IMG/VR virus record: IMGVR_UViG_3300033148_002840 | Coordinates: 1-54,369 of that record | DNA: 54,369 bases | Reading direction: 5' to 3' (one strand) | From: a virus | Shown here: positions 3,095 through 54,369 of the stretch, piece after piece | How positions within the stretch are numbered: position 1 is the stretch's first letter | How the letters are laid out: each line of letters opens with the position of its first letter | The notes under the pieces: model-generated | What the model was told of the DNA's origin: nothing | Seen by the model: the letters and a program-made list of their open reading frames with translations, nothing else | Database searches by the model: none | Program-made: the position numbers and the translations under genes

Positions 3095-3382
3095 ATGGCA
3101 ACGATGGTTGACGTAGAGAAGCTGAAAGGGCGAATGGAGGATAGCCCTGCGTACCGACTCGGCGGTGTACTGCTTCCAAAAAGTCTGCTGTTCTGGATCG
3201 ACGAACTCGCCGTCGAAGTGCTGGGCACGCCCGACGTGCTGAGGGAGTCAAGCAACCAAACAATTATAGAGGCTCTACACGTTCTGAACGATGAGGTGGC
3301 AACTCGGCTAGGCGTAAAAATCATGGTGGACACATACGACGTACTCCAGGCGAAGAAGGAGAATCACGATGGCATGGCCTAA
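3095..3382 (+). CDS. Hypothetical protein, paralogue A, 95 aa
   Basis: It begins MATMVDVEKLK and contains the block IDELAVEVLGTPDVL. Both match the product of 3511-3837 (MAKMVDAEKLQ, IDRLSVEVPDTPDVL), and both end with an AKKE-type tail. The two genes are therefore a tandem duplication separated by a 52-codon gene. The start follows AAGGAGTCTAACG. Helical, soluble, function unknown. Confidence 0.7.
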   Translation: MATMVDVEKLKGRMEDSPAYRLGGVLLPKSLLFWIDELAVEVLGTPDVLRESSNQTIIEALHVLNDEVATRLGVKIMVDTYDVLQAKKENHDGMA

Positions 3383-3527
3383 GAGGGTGTGCCGTTGGCT
3401 GGCCTACAAGCTTCCTTGGTGCGTGGTCGAAAAAGCATATAACCGCTGGATGGGTTGCGGCGACCACAGTTGGGCGGATAAGTATTACGAGCCGGACTCG
3501 GAGAATCACGATGGCAAAGATGGTTGA
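3369..3527 (+). CDS. Small Trp/Cys-rich protein, 52 aa
   Basis: The ATG lies after AAGGAGAATCACG and overlaps both neighbours. The product is rich in Trp, Tyr and Cys (WPKRVCRWLAYKLPWC, NRWMGCGDHSW). Its ribosome-binding segment GGAGAATCACGATGGCA is repeated before the next gene at 3499, so the duplication of the flanking paralogues included this leader. No family recognised. Confidence 0.55.
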   Translation: MAWPKRVCRWLAYKLPWCVVEKAYNRWMGCGDHSWADKYYEPDSENHDGKDG

Positions 3528-3837
3528 TGCAGAAAAGTTGCAAAGGTTAATCCAAACGCTGAGCCTGCCACCTACTTGGGAGGGTCGGCGGTACATTTTC
3601 ACATATGTTGTGGCAAATGCTATCGACCGCCTCTCTGTTGAAGTGCCCGACACGCCCGACGTGTTGGGGGAGTTAAAGAAGTGGCTGGATGCAGAGGTGG
3701 CTCATTCGTATGAGGTGGCTGCTCGTAATAATGACCCACTGAAGGATTATTGGAAAAGCCGAATAGATGGTTTGCTCGGTGCGCGTACCAAACTGGCCGA
3801 ACTCCAGGCGAAGAAGGAGGAACCCGCTAATGGCTAA
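3511..3837 (+). CDS. Hypothetical protein, paralogue B, 108 aa
   Basis: Paralogue of the 3095-3382 product, with the shared N-terminus and the VEVxxTPDVL block. It has an extra helical stretch in the middle (KDYWKSRIDGLLGARTKLAEL). Its start overlaps the end of the 52-residue gene and uses the same GGAGAATCACG leader. Function unknown. Confidence 0.7.
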   Translation: MAKMVDAEKLQRLIQTLSLPPTWEGRRYIFTYVVANAIDRLSVEVPDTPDVLGELKKWLDAEVAHSYEVAARNNDPLKDYWKSRIDGLLGARTKLAELQAKKEEPANG

Positions 3838-4072
3838 AGGAATCACCCCCGCGTTGATAGCAAAGTACGGAGAGCCAGGGAGCATAATCCCTGGAACAAA
3901 GCACAGGCGAGCCTACTGCGGTGTTTGTGGAGAGCCCATTCGCATTAAGGCGCGGGGCCGTTATAGTCATGGAACCTGCGATCGGTGCATGGGAATGCGA
4001 CCGCGAACTCGTACGAGCACAGACCCCCGACGACAGGGTGATTCTAGTCACCGTGTTGTTGCGTCATTTTAA
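3830..4072 (+). CDS. Zinc-ribbon protein, 80 aa
   Basis: The start at the ATG after AAGGAGGAACCCGCTA overlaps the upstream gene by a few bases. YCGVCGEPIRIKARGRYSH...CDRCMG makes a zinc ribbon near residues 24-48. The tail is basic (RPRTRTSTDPRRQ), which fits nucleic-acid contact. It is likely a paralogue of the protein at 2866-3072. Confidence 0.7.
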   Translation: MAKGITPALIAKYGEPGSIIPGTKHRRAYCGVCGEPIRIKARGRYSHGTCDRCMGMRPRTRTSTDPRRQGDSSHRVVASF

Positions 4073-4083
4073 GGAGACTACAG

Positions 4084-4347
4084 ATGGGAATGTTAGTTCT
4101 ATCACGCTACCCGAATACCCCCCGTGATCTACTAGAAATGGAGTGCTCGGATGGAACCAAAATCGAGGTCCGGGTCTTAGAGGCGTTCGATGGTGGAAAA
4201 GGCGTAAAGGTTGGGATTACGGCGCCCAAGACCTGCGCCATCTATCGGTCTGAGGTACCAGAGTCTCGAAGAAAGCGCCCGCAGGCCGCAAAGGGCATCC
4301 GTGTGTTTCGTGTTAGGGTGCCTAATGGCGCGGGGGGCAAGACATGA
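4084..4347 (+). CDS. csrA: CsrA/RsmA-like RNA-binding translational regulator
   Basis: 87 aa. The N-terminus MGMLVLSR matches the CsrA first strand. The core VRVLEAF...VKVGITAPKTCAIYRSEV matches the conserved VxIGIxAPxxVxVxRxEV region. Arg55 sits where the RNA-contact arginine of CsrA lies. CsrA dimers bind A(N)GGA motifs in mRNA leaders and block or alter translation. The start follows AAGGAGACTACAG, which itself contains AAGGA, so self-control is possible. The C-terminal tail after residue 60 is longer and more basic than in bacterial CsrA. An alternative start is Met3. Confidence 0.85.
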   Translation: MGMLVLSRYPNTPRDLLEMECSDGTKIEVRVLEAFDGGKGVKVGITAPKTCAIYRSEVPESRRKRPQAAKGIRVFRVRVPNGAGGKT

Positions 4348-4670
4348 AATGGTCATATAAAGTTGTAATGACACCCTATTCCGATGGCGACTACTGCGTC
4401 AACTGGGGTGAAAAGGAGTTCAATGGACCGAAACTTCGATCCCATTGTGGGCAACCAGAGGTCCAATGTTCCGATGAGGTGGCAAATCAGATCATTGCGA
4501 TTCCGCTATTGTTGGCGGCATGTCGGCGATATATCAAGTGGCAAGATGAGTTGAACGCTGAGCGCCGCCCCCCATTGCCATTGTGCGACTGTGGAAAATG
4601 TACGCTTTGTCAAATGCGAGAGGCGGTTGCCGTCGCTGATGAGGAAGCAAAGGAGAAATCAGGTGAGTAA
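4344..4670 (+). CDS. Hypothetical protein with Cys-rich motif, 108 aa
   Basis: The start overlaps csrA by ATGA. The N-terminal half has beta-type alternation and the middle is helical (VANQIIAIPLLLAACRRYIKW). Near residues 81-89, CDCGKCTLC is a compact Cys cluster of zinc or Fe-S type, followed by an acidic helix. This architecture recurs in small phage proteins of unknown role. Confidence 0.65.
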   Translation: MKWSYKVVMTPYSDGDYCVNWGEKEFNGPKLRSHCGQPEVQCSDEVANQIIAIPLLLAACRRYIKWQDELNAERRPPLPLCDCGKCTLCQMREAVAVADEEAKEKSGE

Positions 4671-11187: not shown

Positions 11188-11399
11188 TGTCTCCAGACCT
11201 AAATGATCTCGACTGGAATATACTCACCGCGACCAACGACGAGAATCATCCTGCGGTCCGGGCGGACGAGACAAAGGCGATGATCTCTATCGGGAAGTTG
11301 TTTAGACTAAAGCTAGTTGAATATGGAATCAAGGGTAATTTGTTGCCGACTGAACTAGGAAAGCTCGCGTTAGCTGAAAAGGAGACCTTAGATGCCTAA
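11187..11399 (+). CDS. Small winged-helix-like protein, 70 aa
   Basis: TAATG overlap with the upstream gene. The layout is a helix (LDWNILTATND), a helix (KAMISIGKLFRLKLVEYG) and a beta-turn ending in LTELGKLAL. This resembles the C-terminal wing segments often seen in small phage regulators. The resemblance to the upstream neighbour suggests an old duplication. Confidence 0.55.
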   Translation: MSPDLNDLDWNILTATNDENHPAVRADETKAMISIGKLFRLKLVEYGIKGNLLPTELGKLALAEKETLDA

Positions 11400-12255
11400 G
11401 TTTACGGTTGATAGCCGAACCGTCGTGACCGCGGATACCACTAAGAAGAAGCTCGGCGATGTCTTCGAGACTTATAGCCCTAAACAGGCCAAAGTACAGG
11501 ACATCACTGCACTGGTGCATGGTGAGAGCGGCGTGGGTAAGACCGCATTTCTGTCTGGGTTTCCAAACCCGATCTTCATTTTCACGGAAGATAGCGGGCA
11601 GTTTATGGAGTGCCGACGAACGCTGGTCTACGCCTGGAAGGATTTCTGTAAAACTATTGTAACCTTGGAGAGATTGAAGTCTACCTTCAAGGATGAGGAC
11701 CCCCCACCCACGCTTATCATTGACACCGTGGACCAGCTCTATACCATGTGTGAGAATCACGTCTGCGAAGTGCGTGGTATGGAGTATCCATCAGATGCTA
11801 CCAGCGGGGCAGGTTGGGCGTACGTTGGTAATGAGTTTGCTCAGTGGTTCCGACGCGCCCGCGCACTCTTTGGCGGCGTTTGGATGACTACACATACCAC
11901 GGAACTTTATACGATAGATGCAGGCTTCGATGAGCGAAAGGGAAAAAAGGTTCCCGAGATGGGGAAGCGCGCATGGCGGGTTATTCGTCCACACCTCGCC
12001 GTAACAATCTTCCTCGATGCTGTGCGGATGCAGAACAAAGATGGCAAGCTGCATAATGCGCGGGTGGCTAAGATAAGCGTTGATCCGCACCACGCGGCAA
12101 AGAAGCGGCATGGGCTTAATCTCCCGGACCAGGTGTTGTGTCCTGATCCCAATGCCGGACACAATCCGGCAGGCCCCTTCTTAGATGCGTTTAAGCAAGC
12201 CCTCATTAAGGGCGAAACCATAACCCCCAGTACAGGAGGCCAATCAAATGGCTGA
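11392..12255 (+). CDS. Sak4-like RecA-fold recombination ATPase
   Basis: 287 aa. Walker A GESGVGKTAF is at residues 44-53. Walker B TLIIDTVDQL lies near 107, then a conserved sensor stretch MTTHTTELY. The length and single RecA core fit the phage ATP-binding proteins of the Sak4 group, which promote single-strand annealing with a phage SSB. The gene directly after it encodes a DUF669-like SSB, the usual partner arrangement. The start ATG follows AAGGAGACCTTAG. Confidence 0.8.
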   Translation: MPKFTVDSRTVVTADTTKKKLGDVFETYSPKQAKVQDITALVHGESGVGKTAFLSGFPNPIFIFTEDSGQFMECRRTLVYAWKDFCKTIVTLERLKSTFKDEDPPPTLIIDTVDQLYTMCENHVCEVRGMEYPSDATSGAGWAYVGNEFAQWFRRARALFGGVWMTTHTTELYTIDAGFDERKGKKVPEMGKRAWRVIRPHLAVTIFLDAVRMQNKDGKLHNARVAKISVDPHHAAKKRHGLNLPDQVLCPDPNAGHNPAGPFLDAFKQALIKGETITPSTGGQSNG

Positions 12256-12694
12256 GAACGAGGAGTTGGTAAGTCAACTATTGGATGAGCAGGACGAAAA
12301 GGATTTCGCAGTAGCGGGGTCTGGTATCCCCCTCGATGTGGGGGACCATACCGTAGATGTTGTGGCCCTTGAGGGTAAGACCACAGAAAAGGCGAAGGTT
12401 GTCACCCTCAGTATTGAAACCGTTGATGACGTGGGGCCGACGGGCGCTCCCATCAAGTTCACTTGTGATTATTGGATCGTGAACGAGGCTGGTCAGCGCC
12501 GGGACATTGAACTGGGCAGGCTTCGTAAGGAACTCGGTATTATGATGCGGGGTGCCGATTTAGACCCCACTGGACTGAGCGGGAATGATCGTTTGGCGGC
12601 CGTTCAGAGTGCGTTGCCCCTTCGAGTTGCCTTCAATGTGAAGCAATCCGGCGAGTTCAAAAACTGGAAGATCGTCAGAGTAGTCAGCGGTTAG
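12248..12694 (+). CDS. DUF669-like single-strand DNA-binding protein
   Basis: 148 aa. An acidic N-terminus leads into a beta-rich core (IPLDVGDHTVDVVALE, VVTLSIETVDD, IKFTCDYWIV) and a helical segment (LGRLRKELGIMM). The C-terminal strand is LPLRVAFNVKQSGEFKNWKIVRV. The layout resembles DUF669 proteins, which act as phage single-strand binding proteins next to Sak4-type recombinases. A second DUF669-like unit lies at 17586-18002. Confidence 0.65.
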   Translation: MAENEELVSQLLDEQDEKDFAVAGSGIPLDVGDHTVDVVALEGKTTEKAKVVTLSIETVDDVGPTGAPIKFTCDYWIVNEAGQRRDIELGRLRKELGIMMRGADLDPTGLSGNDRLAAVQSALPLRVAFNVKQSGEFKNWKIVRVVSG

Positions 12695-16794: not shown

Positions 16795-17088
16795 ATGTGC
16801 ATTATCTTAGGATTCGGTCATGTGGAAGGGGGGGAGCGCACAAAGATCAGGGCGGCGTTACTCGATCATGCAAAATGCGGCCGTACTGTTTCAGACATCT
16901 TGGCGATCTGGAACGACAAGGCCGACGAATACGATGACCTACCGCGTGGCGAAGCTCCAGAACGATATACACGCATCTTTTGTTATGGTGGTAAATTGCA
17001 CTTCCATCATATAAACCGCAATCACCCCTTTTCGCCTGACGGCTGGGCCTTACTGCAAGTGAATGAGCCTTTTGACGTAGGAGACTAA
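16795..17088 (+). CDS. Hypothetical protein, 97 aa
   Basis: The start is the ATG after AGAGGAGACTACTA. Short hydrophobic N-terminus (CIILGFGHVEGG), then a helical HTH-like stretch (RAALLDHAKCGRTVSDILAIW) and a beta-rich end. No family recognised. It overlaps the Lar-like gene by one base. Confidence 0.6.
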   Translation: MCIILGFGHVEGGERTKIRAALLDHAKCGRTVSDILAIWNDKADEYDDLPRGEAPERYTRIFCYGGKLHFHHINRNHPFSPDGWALLQVNEPFDVGD

Positions 17089-18002
17089 TGATGTCTATTG
17101 AATTGAAGCCGTGTCCAAATCCAGAATGTAGAGAGAAGAAGCCCAATCTGCGAATCGAAGGACACGAAGATGGTATCAGGTACGTCGAGTGTCATCATTG
17201 TGGCATGACCGGGCCTTCATCCTTTGGGAATAGTTTCTCGATTGGGTTGTGGAACAACCTGCCCCGTGAAGATAGCGAGACTGATAAGATATTGGCTGAT
17301 ATGGATCGAGATATAAAGGAGGCAGCAACCGCAGCCTTTTGTCCGGGGTTTTTCTCGCCCCGCGAAGACAAGACCGAGCCTGTCAAGCCCGAGAGGAAGT
17401 GCCCGCATTGTGGAGGTAATGTTATCCGTGGCTGTAATAGCGATGCGCAGTGGTGCCAATGTACCAACTGCTTTGCAGCCAGTCCTCACTGTTATCTCCT
17501 AAATGAAGCCTACGATGCGTGGTGGGCACCATTCAGGGCGCGAGATGTCGCGCCGGTTAACAAGAAGGTTGTAGAGGATAAACAAATGGCTAACCTGAAT
17601 GGATTTGACGCGCGCACTGTGGAACCCACCGCCAATTTTGAGCCAATTCCGGCGGGCAAGTATCTGGCAGCCATCACCGCCAGCGAAATGAAAACCACTA
17701 AGAAAGGTGACGGCGGCTACCTGCAACTGGAGTTCACCGTCCTCGACGGCGACTGCAAGGGCCAAAAGGTTTGGGATCGGCTGTGCATCAATCACCCAAA
17801 CGGCCTGACGCAGAAGATCGCAAGGGGCAATCTCTCGGCGATCTGTCGGGCGGTTGGGGTGATGCAGCCTTACGACTCGGTCGAACTTCACAACCTGCCG
17901 CTGTTGATCACCGTCAAGCTCAAGAAGTGTGAGGACACCGGCGAGCTGACCAACGAGGTCAAGGGCTACGCCAAGAAAGAGACGGCCGCCAGTCAGTCGT
18001 AG
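17088..18002 (+). CDS. Two Lar-type zinc ribbons fused to a DUF669 SSB-like domain
   Basis: 304 aa. Residues 5-60 (LKPCPNPEC...CHHCGMTGP...IGLWNN) and about 104-150 (CPHCGGNV...CTNCFAAS...AYDAWW) are Lar-like ribbons. Lar-type proteins counter restriction in some systems. Residues 167-304 are a DUF669 domain (GKYLAAITASE, YLQLEFTVLDG, LCINHPNGLTQKIARGNLSAICRAVGV). The last part has clearly more G/C at third codon positions than its surroundings. An ATG at 17586 with GAGG upstream could make the DUF669 part alone. A second copy of the ribbon end lies downstream, pointing to an insertion. Confidence 0.75.
   Translation: MMSIELKPCPNPECREKKPNLRIEGHEDGIRYVECHHCGMTGPSSFGNSFSIGLWNNLPREDSETDKILADMDRDIKEAATAAFCPGFFSPREDKTEPVKPERKCPHCGGNVIRGCNSDAQWCQCTNCFAASPHCYLLNEAYDAWWAPFRARDVAPVNKKVVEDKQMANLNGFDARTVEPTANFEPIPAGKYLAAITASEMKTTKKGDGGYLQLEFTVLDGDCKGQKVWDRLCINHPNGLTQKIARGNLSAICRAVGVMQPYDSVELHNLPLLITVKLKKCEDTGELTNEVKGYAKKETAASQS
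17508..17551 (+). repeat. Gene-end repeat, copy 1 (inside Lar ribbon)
   Basis: 44 bases encoding AYDAWWAPFRARDVA. Matches 18023-18066 with five mismatches. The two copies bracket the DUF669 module. Confidence 0.85.
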
Positions 18003-18022
18003 CTGGTTCTCAGCGCCCCACT

Positions 18023-18066
18023 GCCTACGCCGCGTGGTGGGCGCTATTCAGGGCGCGAGATGCCGC
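18023..18066 (+). repeat. Gene-end repeat, copy 2 (orphan Lar tail)
   Basis: 44 bases encoding AYAAWWALFRARDAA in an open frame that continues as WKSLERMNRKLLK and stops at the next gene's ATGA. This looks like the original C-terminus of the Lar-type gene, stranded after the DUF669 module. Confidence 0.85.
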
Positions 18067-18105
18067 CTGGAAATCGTTGGAGCGTATGAATAGGAAACTT
18101 CTAAA

Positions 18106-18466
18106 ATGATCCTACAGGCTGCTGTCCACCATATACCACTAGCGGATAACTCCGTGGACTTGGTATTCTGCTCGCCGCCCTATGAGGATGCGAGGACCTA
18201 TGACATTGATTTCTCGCTGAAGGGGGAAGCCTGGGTCGCGTGGGCGATTCCCGGCTTCATGGAGTGTTTGCGAGTTTGTCGGGGGCTGGTTGCCTGGGGG
18301 AATCGTGCTTGACCCATTTTCGGGTAGTGGAACTACACTAGCAGTAGCCCTGAAGAATGGCCGCAGAGCGATTGCATCCGATCTGAGATTCAGTCAGGTG
18401 GAGTTGACGGTGCGTCGCGCCAAAGAGGCTCAAATAGCCAACGGTTCCTCAGCACCAAACCTGTAA
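18106..18466 (+). pseudogene. DNA methyltransferase (N4/N6 type) with internal deletion
   Basis: The first frame (18106-18312) has ADNSVDLVFCSPPYEDARTY, the catalytic motif IV, then stops. The C-terminal SAM motif [16 protein letters not shown], followed by [11 protein letters not shown], sits in another frame from 18305 to the stop at 18464. Normally the two motifs are separated by roughly 100 or more residues of target-recognition sequence. Here about 50 residues remain, and the junction GLVAWG/IVLDPF is out of frame. An internal deletion is the simplest reading. The tail overlaps the convergent gene by 77 bp. Confidence 0.8.
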
Positions 18467-44397: not shown

Positions 44398-45723
44398 TTA
44401 TACTTTCCTCCCGCTACTGCCTTCGATGCCCCACAGGTGGACGGCATAGGGGTCTTTCTTTCCAAGCATCTCTATACGGGCGGCTTCGGGCGCTTTCCAA
44501 AAGGCCCGCGCTTTCTCACGTTCCCGCCAGGACCACGGATAAAAATAACTCCACGGTAGGATGCGCATATCACTATCGCCGTTTTCTGTAAAGAGTCCAG
44601 TTAGCATACTTGGTCCGAAGCGTGTGCGAGGGCGGCGCTCCGTCTCCGGCGTTATCTTCGGTATTCTGGCAAGGCACCGCATGAACGCATTACTGTGGCG
44701 AATAGCACCCATACACCCATTGGTTAGCTTCTTAGAGCCCTCGTGGAGTGTAGTCCAGGCAGGTCCCTTCTTGCGCAGCGGATCAAAACTTTTACGTGTT
44801 ATAAGATCAGTATTGAGGGTGACACCACCATAATGATAGAGTAGCCAACAGTATAAGATATCGGCGCGTTGACAAAGTTGTTCACAACTAGACCATGCGG
44901 GGACCAAATCATCCTGAAATGTTGGGGGGCGCCCCGTCCACAGATTGATCTTCCAACGAGGATTATGCGCTCGAAAGGCGTCCATAATACCTTGAAGCCA
45001 ATTGGGTTTAGGCCCCAACCACACAAAGTGCGCGATCCGTGGTATAATGTTGGGTAAATCGGCGTCCTGAACGTACGTGTAGTCAATGTCTAATAGTTTG
45101 CACTCTTCTTCTTGCAGGTTGCGGAGTTCTGGAAAGATACCTTGCCCTCGACCACTGGATAGTATGGACAATCGGGGATCATAGGGACTTCCTAGTTTAG
45201 AAGGAGTGTTTCCGTCGCACCCAATGTACACGATCTCGGAGGCGCCACAAATCCACGCGAAATGTGTGGCTAGATGACACACGCTTCCGGCCTTATATAA
45301 TGACCCGGACACAGCCGCTTCCTCTCTAGAGAGTTTGAGTAGACTTTTATCCTTGTATCCACTCCAATCATATCCAACGATTGTGCCATGTTCAGTGGGA
45401 TTGAGGTCCCGCGCGAAGATACGACCTCGATTGTGAATGTGTTCGATGCCTGCTGGCGGGTTCTTGGTCGGTCCCTGGGGTAAGACAAGTGTACTCGTTC
45501 TATTCGATGTGAGGAGCACCTTCATGGATTTGTGGGCCGTTACCAAGAAAGTCTCAATGGATTTAGTCACCTTATCTTCTAGGAGGACAGCATCATTCAA
45601 GAAGATGATGGGGTCCGTTATCTTCGTTAGGTTCTCATAGTCGTAGGGGGTAATGCCCTTACCCACAATTATGAATCGGTAACCAGCGTACTTATTGAGA
45701 TAATCTTTGAGAGTTAGCATCAT
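44398..45723 (-). CDS. DUF115-like domain fused to a GT32-type glycosyltransferase
   Basis: 441 aa. Residues 1-224 are a DUF115-like Rossmann domain (YRFIIVGKGITPYDY, ASEIVYIGCDG). Residues 225-441 are a sugar-transferase domain (IAHFVWLGPKPNW, ADILYCWLLYHYGG). The DxD metal motif reads NTD at 304-306 in VTLNTDLI, so its first Asp is replaced by Asn, although the second is kept. Fusion of these two domains is not a common phage architecture. The start is 45723 or 45720. Confidence 0.75.
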   Translation of the reverse strand: MMLTLKDYLNKYAGYRFIIVGKGITPYDYENLTKITDPIIFLNDAVLLEDKVTKSIETFLVTAHKSMKVLLTSNRTSTLVLPQGPTKNPPAGIEHIHNRGRIFARDLNPTEHGTIVGYDWSGYKDKSLLKLSREEAAVSGSLYKAGSVCHLATHFAWICGASEIVYIGCDGNTPSKLGSPYDPRLSILSSGRGQGIFPELRNLQEEECKLLDIDYTYVQDADLPNIIPRIAHFVWLGPKPNWLQGIMDAFRAHNPRWKINLWTGRPPTFQDDLVPAWSSCEQLCQRADILYCWLLYHYGGVTLNTDLITRKSFDPLRKKGPAWTTLHEGSKKLTNGCMGAIRHSNAFMRCLARIPKITPETERRPRTRFGPSMLTGLFTENGDSDMRILPWSYFYPWSWREREKARAFWKAPEAARIEMLGKKDPYAVHLWGIEGSSGRKV

Positions 45724-46388
45724 TCACTCGCTCTTGGGGCGCCAACTTCACGAAAAGTCTTAAATAGGTGCAGCCCAAATGGGGGAACCCCATCTACCCA
45801 CTTGGATTTAGTGCTATCTAGAAGGATTTTGCGCTCCGTTAGGGATGCTTTCCAAAACTTCCTACAGTCTTCAGGCTCCGGTAAAACATTGAAATAGTGT
45901 GCGGGGAGAAGCTCCATCATTCCATGAGAGCAGCAGTAGTGTACTAGCCGGGCACCCCTCCCTGTATGGTGTTTGGATAGTTGCTCCTCACGCTTCATGT
46001 AGACATCAACCAAGAATCTGAAGGCCGCGCATCCCTGTTGCCCACCTAAGACGCCATTATAACAGGCGTTCTTAGTTTGATGCCAGGCATAGGTAAACGC
46101 CGTGTACTTCAATAGCGGGTTGAATGATCGGAAGGTTATCACATCGGAGTCAACATAGACGCCGCCGTAAGTCGAAAGCAACCAATATCGTATTATGTTA
46201 CTCTTCTTTGAGAAGATGGGGTTTTCATCACACCGACAGCGGAGGGCCGTTGGGAACCTGTCAGGAACGTCCTCCCACAATTTTACTTCCCAATCGGGGT
46301 GAAATTGTCGAAAGGTCTCCATGTTCGCGGTCGCCCATGCAGGGGGTGGCGACCCCAACCAGATGAAGTGACATAGTTTTGGGATCAT
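45720..46388 (-). CDS. GT32-type glycosyltransferase, 222 aa
   Basis: MIPKLCHFIWLGSPPPAW at the start and NIIRYWLLSTYGGVYVDSDV, with an intact DxD motif (DSD at 80-82), define a sugar-nucleotide-dependent transferase. The sequence is related to the C-terminal half of the next gene, so the two probably act in turn or on different linkages. Starts at MIPKL rather than the upstream ATG-less frame. Confidence 0.85.
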   Translation of the reverse strand: MIPKLCHFIWLGSPPPAWATANMETFRQFHPDWEVKLWEDVPDRFPTALRCRCDENPIFSKKSNIIRYWLLSTYGGVYVDSDVITFRSFNPLLKYTAFTYAWHQTKNACYNGVLGGQQGCAAFRFLVDVYMKREEQLSKHHTGRGARLVHYCCSHGMMELLPAHYFNVLPEPEDCRKFWKASLTERKILLDSTKSKWVDGVPPFGLHLFKTFREVGAPRASE

Positions 46389-46389
46389 T

Positions 46390-46668
46390 CTAAGGGTCCC
46401 CACTCTCGGTTGGCTCCTCCTGAATTATACCCTCTCGTAAGAGATAGTAGTAGAACGCTTCCAAGAGACACGATGGCGACCAACTTGCCAGGTGGGGTGC
46501 CGTCAATTCGCAGCCATGTAGCGCCATTGGTTCACCGGAGGCGATCTTTCGTAGGAAGTCTTCCCAGTGTTTGGGCATCTGTGCTCCTCCAAGGTCATCG
46601 ACGTTACTGTTCGTTATGGTACCATTCTGACTACCTAAAATTCTAGGCAACAGTGGCTTAACCCGCAT
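46390..46668 (-). CDS. Hypothetical cargo-operon protein, 92 aa
   Basis: The start is the ATG after GGAGATAACATA. A helical C-terminus (HLASWSPSCLLEAFYYYLLREGII) follows an N-terminal basic stretch. No catalytic motif. It lies directly upstream of the first glycosyltransferase gene. Confidence 0.55.
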   Translation of the reverse strand: MRVKPLLPRILGSQNGTITNSNVDDLGGAQMPKHWEDFLRKIASGEPMALHGCELTAPHLASWSPSCLLEAFYYYLLREGIIQEEPTESGDP

Positions 46669-46964: not shown

Positions 46965-47003
46965 TCAAGGTATCTCCAAGCGCAACGTACTCAATACGTT
47001 CAT
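46965..47003 (-). pseudogene. Orphan second copy of protease 3' end
   Basis: ATG overlapping the upstream stop (ATGA) opens a 12-residue frame MNVLSTLRLEIP that ends in TGA. Its last residues equal the end of the protease (LNVLGALRLEIP). At the DNA level, 46969-47000 matches 47351-47382 in 29 of 32 bases. Confidence 0.75.
46969..47000. repeat. Gene-end repeat copy 2 (protease)
   Basis: 32 bases matching 47351-47382 at 29 positions. The copies flank the gene 47000-47347. Confidence 0.85.
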
Positions 47004-47347
47004 ACTTCTACAACCATAAGATTGTACTTTTCCGTTGGCACTGATGGCTTAAAGTTTGGGTACAACGCCCGCACGTCAAAACAATGCTTGGTAAACTTAA
47101 CTGGGTACTTTTTCAACAGCCACCGAGGAAACCAGCGGTCCTTAAAAGCCTGCCACCAATCAGATGGGTGCGATATAGATAGAGCGTCTACCCGTTCGCC
47201 CCAGACGAACCCACGAACCTGCGCAATGATGTCACCTGCTGCGTGTTCCAGGAAGGTGGCCTCCGTCTCACATAGATAACGATCGAGTCTTTGGCTGAGT
47301 CCAACACAAAATTTCTCCAGGCGGACTGTTCTGAAATCGGAATTCAT
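47000..47347 (-). CDS. Hypothetical protein flanked by repeats, 115 aa
   Basis: MNSDFRTVRLEKF...LCETEATFLEHAAGDIIAQVRGFVWGERVDAL, then SDWWQAFKDRWFPRWLLKKYPV. An N-terminal helix and a Trp/Arg-rich block near residues 65-80 are clear. The gene lies between the protease end and an orphan copy of that end, so it looks inserted. The stop/start overlap with the protease is TAATG. No known function. Confidence 0.65.
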   Translation of the reverse strand: MNSDFRTVRLEKFCVGLSQRLDRYLCETEATFLEHAAGDIIAQVRGFVWGERVDALSISHPSDWWQAFKDRWFPRWLLKKYPVKFTKHCFDVRALYPNFKPSVPTEKYNLMVVEV

Positions 47348-48408
47348 TATGGTATCTCCAAGCGCAACGCACCTAATACGTTGAGCGCCGTGTTTGCGAT
47401 CGTTATCTGTTCGGAGCCAGCAAACAACAGGCCAACGAGCGTTGCGCGGCCGTGATCGCTACCTATTGTTACGATTGCACTACCGGAATCGCCGCCCTGA
47501 CTCATAGCGCTCAGTAGAATCTGGTCCTCGAAGGTTGCAATCTTTCCACTACCGTAGTTGACCTTGACGGTAGCTCCCGTGTACTGTACGACGCCGGTTG
47601 TGGTTTCCGTGGTGCGACCCCTCTTGTATACTATATCGCCTGGGAACGCGGGTGCAAAGTCATCTATTGGTGACCAGCCCGTTCCAACAAATTCATCGGT
47701 GATATCATCGAGTTTTGTGGGCATTGCATAGGCGGCGTCTACTAGATTTACGTCGCTTCTAATCGAGGTAGCAATGAGACGAGTTTTGCGGCCCGTAGCC
47801 CACAATACGAGATTCATAACCTTGGTAGCAGCCTTAACAACGGGGCATTTATTAGGCTCCTCACTGAATGATATCGGAATGTACCCGTGTAGCGTTCCAA
47901 TTCTACTAAACGCGGCGAAACCACCATCCGCAGGTCCGGGCTGCAAAATGGCGTCCCCGATCTTGGCGGCATTACTATTGGCTAAGACATGGTTATTGGA
48001 GACAATGACGGGGACTTTTGTGCCCCCCGGGCGCGCAACGAATCCGAACGTCCCGGCTGTAATGTCCTTGTGTCCGATACTCACCCCTGGGAATGCCGGT
48101 CGATGTCGCTTCTTGAGATTAACTGCTTTTGGGGACGCGCTGAGCGCCCAAATGTCACCAACTTCGACGACATCCGTTCTATATGGATGCAGTTTAAGTC
48201 CGCACTCCAATGAGACTTGCGTTGGGATCATTGTCTCCGTGGTTAGCGCACTAGGCGGCAGCTTCTTACGTACAAAGAATACTACAGCTTGTATACTGGT
48301 GGGACGACCACCGCGCTTCTTAGTACCCTTGGCGACCCCTACGATATTGGAGTCGGTCAGGAGTTTACGAATGGTGGCGCTTTTTGCGAATTGGGAATCG
48401 GACTTCAT
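47347..48408 (-). CDS. Chymotrypsin-fold serine protease, 353 aa
   Basis: SNNHVLAN (His140), NLVDAAYA (Asp224) and GGDSGSAIV (Ser308) give the classic triad order of S1-type trypsin-like peptidases. The ordered beta segments around them (VPVIVSNNHVLA, TTGVVQYTGATVKVNYG) fit the double beta-barrel. An N-terminal 100-residue extension lacks a signal peptide. A phage-encoded S1 protease could process virion or host proteins. The leader carries four 8-bp repeats. Confidence 0.85.
   Translation of the reverse strand: MKSDSQFAKSATIRKLLTDSNIVGVAKGTKKRGGRPTSIQAVVFFVRKKLPPSALTTETMIPTQVSLECGLKLHPYRTDVVEVGDIWALSASPKAVNLKKRHRPAFPGVSIGHKDITAGTFGFVARPGGTKVPVIVSNNHVLANSNAAKIGDAILQPGPADGGFAAFSRIGTLHGYIPISFSEEPNKCPVVKAATKVMNLVLWATGRKTRLIATSIRSDVNLVDAAYAMPTKLDDITDEFVGTGWSPIDDFAPAFPGDIVYKRGRTTETTTGVVQYTGATVKVNYGSGKIATFEDQILLSAMSQGGDSGSAIVTIGSDHGRATLVGLLFAGSEQITIANTALNVLGALRLEIP
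47351..47382. repeat. Gene-end repeat copy 1 (protease)
   Basis: 32 bases in the last codons of the protease, repeated 382 bases downstream at 46969-47000. Confidence 0.85.
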
Positions 48409-53729: not shown

Positions 53730-54369
53730 ATGTATAAGCTTAGATGTCCAGAATGTAAGAAAACAGATAGATTTCAGGTTGAACAACAGCATGATACAGC
53801 GCGTGCGGAATGCGGGTGGTGTGAATATGTATGGTATCCCCGCTGCCTGCAACCCACCAAGCGGGCTTGGAAACGGGGTTATAAAGTTGTGACTCGTCAT
53901 GGAAGCGGCCAACTGACGTCCTTCTTTTCCGGCACAAAAGACACAGTACTATATCATAAGGGCATCGTAGCCCGCCCGAACGAGGGGTATGGAAAGCTCT
54001 CTGTGTTCGATAGCTTTGAACATGCTAACACTTTTAGATTACAGCACTCCTATCGGGAAAAACTAGAGGGGCAGTCGCATGAAATATGGTTGTGTGATTA
54101 CATGGGGGAGGCCATTGCGGGTGCGAAATCAATCCCAATCGGAACCATACGAACGTCTGCGGTGCGTCTCATAGAGCGTAGGTATCCTGCTCCCCCATCC
54201 GTTCCCCCCAATGTGGTTATATATAGGGGGTGGAAGGTCGTTGCGCGCTGTGGAAATGGGGAGAGAGTTTCATTTGTTATGTCGGATGATCAGGAGGTAA
54301 CATACGAGAAAGATGTTTGGTCACGCCGCTTTCCCCGTGGGTCTCACGAGGACCCGCGCCTCTCAGTTT
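53730..54369 (+). CDS. N-terminal part of join-spanning duplicated-domain protein
   Basis: The start follows GGAGAAGGTAGCC. The full product is 286 aa when read across the join to 335. Residues 6-29 (CPEC...CGWC) are a zinc ribbon. Residues about 50-150 are domain copy 1 (GYKVVTR, LSVFDSFEHANTF, EIWLCDY, GTIRTSAVRLI). Residues about 165-275 are copy 2. The repeat is clear at protein level but the domain itself is unknown to me. Confidence 0.85.
   Translation, partial: MYKLRCPECKKTDRFQVEQQHDTARAECGWCEYVWYPRCLQPTKRAWKRGYKVVTRHGSGQLTSFFSGTKDTVLYHKGIVARPNEGYGKLSVFDSFEHANTFRLQHSYREKLEGQSHEIWLCDYMGEAIAGAKSIPIGTIRTSAVRLIERRYPAPPSVPPNVVIYRGWKVVARCGNGERVSFVMSDDQEVTYEKDVWSRRFPRGSHEDPRLSV
54256..54369. 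repeat. Terminal direct repeat (copy 2)
   Basis: Second copy of the 114-base end repeat. Removing it gives a unique length of 54,255 bp. Confidence 0.95.

Follow-up and report, generated by a model that had tools for sequence, protein, structure and literature searches.

How does a phage gene for a single-stranded DNA-binding protein (SSB) of the DUF669 family come to share one reading frame with a zinc-ribbon gene, the end of which appears a second time behind it, and what is made from this arrangement? The window, by which we mean the whole stretch of DNA that was analysed, is an IMG/VR virus record of 54,369 bases. It is probably a complete phage genome, because a perfect 114-nt direct terminal repeat is found at 1-114 and 54256-54369. 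The phage codes for a DNA polymerase, a Sak4-like protein (11392-12255) and a terminase; PADLOC gave no match. Our preferred answer, which we hold with a probability of roughly 0.7, is that the zinc-ribbon gene acquired a foreign DUF669 SSB gene within its 3' end via short-homology recombination, and that this end was duplicated in the process.

The zinc-ribbon gene and its repeated end

The ORF at 17088-18002 (304 aa) sits at the right end of a rightward gene block. Its zinc-ribbon part, with a gene body at 17088-17507 on the plus strand, holds two Cys-rich segments that resemble zinc ribbons (CPNPEC/CHHC and CPHC/CTNC), both of them within the first 166 residues. The first-pass annotation, made from the letters of the DNA alone, had assigned this gene to Lar. 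In favor of that name, residues 1-57 match the Lar-like family phrog_599 (E-value 4.9e-5); against it, PF14354, the Lar family of restriction alleviation, reaches 17.0 bits, under the Pfam cut-off of 28.6. The name ‘Lar-like’ is the furthest that these profile scores allow, and for the sake of simplicity it is the one used in the following.

In the Lar-like gene, and in its frame, a 44-nt block is found at 17508-17551 (plus strand, AYDAWWAPFRARD), and it returns after the DUF669 part at 18023-18066 (plus strand, AYAAWWALFRARD), just as the annotation had noted. The two copies are identical at 39 of 44 positions, start 515 nt apart and have a longest exact run of 17 nt. This repeat is far above chance: its self-BLAST E-value is 1.8e-8, the next best 44-mer match to it elsewhere in the window reaches 24/44, and the best 44-mer match in 100 first-order Markov windows was 27/44. 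The similarity ends abruptly 5' of copy 2. When the base changes are read from the copies, three of the four changed codons are non-synonymous. Between copy 1 and the leader of the DUF669 gene lies a left spacer (17552-17573, plus strand), which showed no DNA match to 80 relatives among the matches listed; a right spacer (18003-18022, plus strand), in which homology with DUF669 DNA peters out near 18006, precedes copy 2. No RNA structure was found at the junction (z 0.41).

The frame of copy 2 differs from that of DUF669. It holds no ATG, GTG or TTG before 18077 and stays open through to a TGA at 18107-18109, so that the tail indeed runs on to a stop after the second block, as had been claimed. 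Joining of the flanks (17088-17507 and 18023-18109) produces a single open frame of 168 aa with an ATGA overlap, the TGA overlapping the ATG at 18106 with which a DNA methyltransferase gene starts. Because the joined flanks restore this 168-aa frame with a stop that overlaps the next gene, we take copy 2 as the probable original gene end, continued by its remainder at 18067-18109 (plus strand). The methyltransferase gene (N6/N4 type, 18106-18466, plus strand) is itself broken: its fragments at 18106-18312 and 18290-18466 cover positions 1-42 and 181-218 of a profile with 221 positions, and the middle (43-180) is missing. Just past these fragments, long leftward genes begin on the opposite strand. 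Since the methyltransferase is without the middle of its domain and the leftward genes start just beyond it, the insert site is a module border with more than one rearrangement in its past.

Copy 2 might also be explained as what is left of a tandem Lar-like paralogue lacking its 5' part, in which case the DUF669 gene would lie between two paralogues and its gain would have involved no duplication. Such a history would agree with the copies being 11% diverged, tandem paralogues do occur in the same phage (3095-3382 and about 3512-3832), and one of the related loci described below (L039) carries tandem zinc-ribbon genes, Lar-like by eye, at 3550-4059 and 4099-4545, downstream of its DUF669 gene. 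However, only some 44 nt are repeated, with the sharp 5' limit mentioned above, and the copy 2 frame joins exactly with the upstream gene and with the methyltransferase start; a paralogue remnant therefore seems unlikely to us. As an IMG/VR record, the window probably stems from a metagenome assembly, and a chimeric joint had to be considered as well. Copies that differ at 5 of 44 positions and have no exact run above 17 nt make a k-mer collapse unlikely; besides, a single gene frame results when the flanks are joined, and the record has its direct terminal repeats of 114 nt. An assembly artefact is thus scarcely credible.

Identity and origin of the DUF669 insert

The DUF669 gene occupies 17586-18002 (plus strand) and codes for 138 aa, with a complete OB core and a missing C-terminal tail. 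Its leader (17574-17585, plus strand) carries a GAGG at 17574-17577, 8 nt ahead of the ATG, and the DNA similarity of several relatives begins precisely at 17574. PF05037 (DUF669) is matched with 64.2 bits (cut-off 21) and the SSB family phrog_6015 with an E-value of 3.4e-42. The predicted model (41 sequences) has a mean pLDDT of 87.4, and the best match of its fold is PrgE (Z 11.1, 122 residues, rmsd 6.0; Foldseek E-value 1.6e-6), one PrgE entry being DNA-bound and the lower-ranked structure matches including unrelated OB folds. Altogether, an OB-type ssDNA-binding fold is predicted for the DUF669 part; a sequence search of solved structures gave nothing useful.

According to the first-pass annotation, the 138 enclosed codons should stand out by their third-position GC content (GC3), and they do. 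GC3 is 0.763 in the DUF669 part (17586-17999, 138 codons), 0.524 in the zinc-ribbon part and 0.41-0.635 in the 37 other ORFs of the window that were tested, one of which had a wrong end assigned and was flagged for an in-frame stop. None of 1023 sliding 139-codon windows reached 0.763, so that the codon usage of 17586-18002 is not normal when set against its neighbours. The insert lies between the phage as a whole (pooled GC3 of 0.554) and its relatives (median of 0.868, 80 loci).

These relatives come from a profile search of viral contigs, in which at least 579 were found and the best 80 of them kept. Forty of the best 80 were aligned, and they are 62-83% identical to the window's copy. In all 80 related loci DUF669 is a separate gene with the same start residue (77 ATG, 3 GTG). 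Among named phage records, 391 had a match, and the 40 listed align from residue 1 with an identity of at most 48%. In the case of the neighbouring genes, the Lar-like part (three queries) and the first methyltransferase fragment each matched none of the 80 loci, the second fragment matched one (weakly, L053), and the Sak4-like protein matched 63 within the fetched flanks. In the DUF669 region of the relatives, the tail frame gave five weak matches; these were discounted, as this query itself starts inside DUF669. At the DNA level, none of the 60 matches listed begins before 17574 or extends past 18009, so that in these the similarity to relatives is confined between the two repeat copies; a stretch of 53 nt in the 3' part of the insert (17935-17987) is identical to the relative L017. 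Judged by its composition and by its relatives, the insert is foreign.

Two of the related loci show features of their own. In L053 (3885-4943), no stop interrupts the DUF669 frame over the 247 codons before its start, which could reflect a real fusion or be due to chance, the DNA being rich in GC. In L071 (3468-4249), a boundary sequence roughly 70 nt long occurs in three copies at gene starts, flanking two small genes.

An empty site, i.e. a relative without the gene and with a single repeat copy, was found in none of the searches for relatives. These comprised a search of phage DNA with the window; searches of viral contigs with the 304-aa ORF, an exonuclease-like protein, a degenerate repeat pattern, the DNA polymerase, a capsid-like protein and a portal-sized protein (our own label for a protein that adjoins the terminase and has no family match); and searches with the zinc-ribbon protein against phages and with the zinc-ribbon DNA against plasmids. 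Against genome contigs, the zinc-ribbon protein gave one weak match of 18 residues in a Lentisphaerae contig, which was not used. No close relative of the phage came up in these searches. Neither did the relatives found include the same fused gene without a tail copy, a case that the annotation had named as contrary to its reading. Because no empty-site relative was found, comparison does not settle gain versus loss.

The proposal that a gain event left behind a duplicate of the target's 3' end is nonetheless supported by the foreign GC3, by the stand-alone gene in 80 of 80 relatives and by the restored joined frame. What we infer as to direction (gain), mechanism and the role of Sak4 is the following. 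The ancestor would have carried a 168-aa Lar-like gene with a double zinc ribbon, its TGA overlapping the start of the DNA methyltransferase. One foreign phage SSB gene (DUF669), lacking its last codons but accompanied by some 12 nt of leader sequence from its old surroundings, would have been joined into the 3' end of this target, with a 44-nt part of the target end left on both sides of the join. The Lar-like gene would have lost its tail and stop and would now run in frame into DUF669, with the original end persisting 3' as a remnant. The most likely route would be recombination with the DNA of another phage at short imperfect homology around this end, in a slightly shifted register, a reaction that the Sak4-type annealing protein of the phage could promote.

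Other observations speak against this reading. Neither spacer (17552-17573 and 18007-18022) has a known source, and a recent one-step duplication would not give copies that are 11% diverged. The 53 nt identical to L017 weakly hint that the copies had already diverged when they were joined. More than one event is possible as well, because the broken methyltransferase next door shows other rearrangements.

Tail loss and the likely gene product

The DUF669 proteins of the relatives have 149-173 aa (80 of 80) compared to 138 aa in the window, and all 80 carry P-x-W or PW within their last 12 residues, a motif that is absent in the window protein. The TAG stop (18000-18002, plus strand) is aligned with a CAG (Gln) codon of the nearest relatives. 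Because this TAG precedes the tip that all 80 relatives have, the insert appears 3'-truncated on its junction side. A reading of the TAG as Gln was considered and is not supported: the single tRNA detected is a tRNA-Glu, with no suppressor tRNA, and 7 of the 26 larger ORFs end in TAG. Past about 18006 the similarity to relatives is not significant, and 18003-18022 was matched or beaten by 189 of 500 shuffles. If copy 2 is taken to start in the old DUF669 end (shared ACGCCGC..GTGG), 18003-18036 can be compared, for which 21 of 500 shuffles scored as high, the comparison being made with 31 of the 80 relatives that were chosen as holding a given motif.

Of 60 residues shared without exception by the ten nearest relatives, 2 differ in the DUF669 core, the leave-one-out values for those relatives being 0-9; the length of its terminal branch is unremarkable (rank 47 of 81). 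The SSB core was apparently retained under constraint after the loss of its tail. This matters as an example of an acquired SSB gene that can be kept, with a seemingly constrained core, after the part that recruits partners is gone. For the stimulation of Sak4 in phage HK620, the DUF669 SSB requires its last six residues (PMC5928155). Like HK620, the phage analysed here combines an SSB of the DUF669 family with a Sak4-type protein. In HK620, however, the SSB gene is next to sak4 and its tail is needed, whereas here some 5.3 kb separate the DUF669 gene (from 17586) from the Sak4-like gene, and the tail is absent, so that both HK620-type traits of a Sak4 partner, the conserved C-terminal tip and a gene next to sak4, are lacking. 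By this comparison, the tail-less SSB may still be able to bind ssDNA, whereas its recruitment of Sak4 would be poor.

Directly 3' of the Sak4-like gene lies an orphan ORF of 148 aa (12248-12691). In phages, the place just after sak4 is often that of an SSB gene. Tested as a second SSB, this ORF reached an hhalign probability of 1% and a pLDDT of 37.6 in its predicted model, and its product had no match to phage proteins at E 1.

To describe the product of the locus itself, both parts of the ORF have to be considered. A Lar-SSB fusion might have been selected, with the zinc ribbons standing in for the lost SSB tail as the partner-binding part and a functional product of 304 aa. That the frame is open across the Lar-like and DUF669 parts, and that the DUF669 core has not decayed (2/60 invariant residues changed against 0-9 in the relatives), would agree with this. 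On the other hand, DUF669 still has a GAGG and a start of its own, one join in three would be in frame by chance, and the fused gene is present in no relative; we consider a selected fusion quite improbable. More likely, the 304-aa fusion is read-through of a gene that is without its stop. Because its own GAGG is placed 8 nt before the ATG and all 80 relatives start there, a separate SSB product from DUF669's own start is likely, with or without some read-through product. Following the presumed gain by short-homology recombination, this product would be a tail-less SSB core that binds ssDNA and recruits partners poorly.

A second site and known gene cassettes

The region 46969-47382 has the same layout as the Lar-like/DUF669 site. 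Here, the target is a protease-like gene (47347-48408, minus strand; phrog_20754 protease, 8.3e-48), the 3' end of which holds copy 1 of a 32-nt repeat (47351-47382). One gene is interposed (47000-47347, minus strand; phrog_26218, function unknown), followed by copy 2 (46969-47000, minus strand), a duplicate of the protease gene end that is identical at 29 of 32 positions and has its own TGA in frame after it. The flanks, when joined, restore frame and stop. As for the protease-like gene itself, its only matches in the phage collection are one uncultured phage of 484 kb and two archaeal spiravirus records.

In 87 records with 816,834 bases, the window among them, we looked for genes that are followed by one other gene and then by a repeat of their own end. 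This gave one match, namely this second case, and none in the other 86 records (762,465 bases), a result that is indicative only, as the rule was written after the cases had been seen, the ORF caller was crude and the first case is missed (both its parts being one ORF). The records surveyed did not include L001 and L088.

Two sites in one genome, with a layout resembling that of elements which restore gene ends, bring to mind the insertion of a mobile element or of a site-specific cassette in which a substitute for the target 3' end is included (integrative element, homing element or ultra-small transposon). The 471-bp insert, however, consists of DUF669 only, with no integrase, transposase or nuclease, and no inverted repeats are found at its ends. 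Moreover, instead of being restored, the upstream gene continues into DUF669, and the differences between the copies are mostly non-synonymous (3/4 changed codons at the first site), unlike those of a recoded tail. We regard such an element as very improbable. Going further, one process might repeatedly add single genes at 3' ends in this phage and leave a 30-45-nt duplicate of the target end, as at its two sites and in agreement with LRRHood and YungJamal (see below). This would be a general short-homology mode driven by the phage's annealing recombinase, which here would have yielded a tail-less SSB joined to zinc ribbons, possibly one that competes dominantly with full-length SSBs for ssDNA. 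As a generalization this is doubtful.

The pickup of single genes by phages is debated between homologous recombination at short shared stretches and illegitimate joining. Scars that are readable on both sides are useful for this debate, and here two with the same layout occur in one genome.

Repeat-flanked gene cassettes are already known in phages. In the mycobacteriophage LRRHood, genes 43-46 are foreign genes with a 29-bp direct repeat that is single copy in relatives (PMC3029335). The repeat stands once within the end of the gene preceding them and once ahead of the gene that follows; according to the authors, the route of gain cannot be reconstructed. In two other mycobacteriophages, YungJamal gene 60 (imperfect 24 bp) and Corndog gene 14 (17 bp) are single genes with short direct repeats at gene ends or junctions and one copy in relatives (PMC4351075). 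The authors of both accounts favor or consider recombination with partner DNA (PMC3029335, PMC4351075), and in lambdoid phages mosaics are concluded to arise mainly from homology-driven recombination that tolerates divergence (PMC3945230). Following this work on LRRHood, YungJamal and lambdoid phages, short-homology recombination was adopted as the likely route for the DUF669 site, the partner being left unspecified.

The DUF669 site has in common with LRRHood a foreign gene between direct repeats, one copy of which lies in the upstream gene's end. It differs in that LRRHood involves four genes, 1.35 kb and a known empty site, whereas here we find one gene, an imperfect 44-nt repeat, no known empty site and a target without its stop. 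With YungJamal and Corndog it shares the single gene flanked by short repeats, and imperfect copies there resemble the 39/44 and 29/32 pairs seen here. In YungJamal, the changes of the upstream copy leave the protein nearly intact, whereas here they mostly alter the protein. Overall, flanking direct repeats, one of them at the upstream gene end, and a gene that is foreign by composition and relatives are traits of the LRRHood/YungJamal type. The DUF669 site is therefore a further case of this kind, a clear but ordinary scar of gene pickup.

Some other repeats were seen in the genome. Diverged tandem paralogues are found at 3095-3832 (3095-3382 and about 3512-3832), with a small gene in between. 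In this third, different place, an identical 17-nt stretch is found at 3358 and 3500, at gene starts. Finally, two adjoining ORFs at 44398-46403 (minus strand) have about 30% identity across 215 residues.
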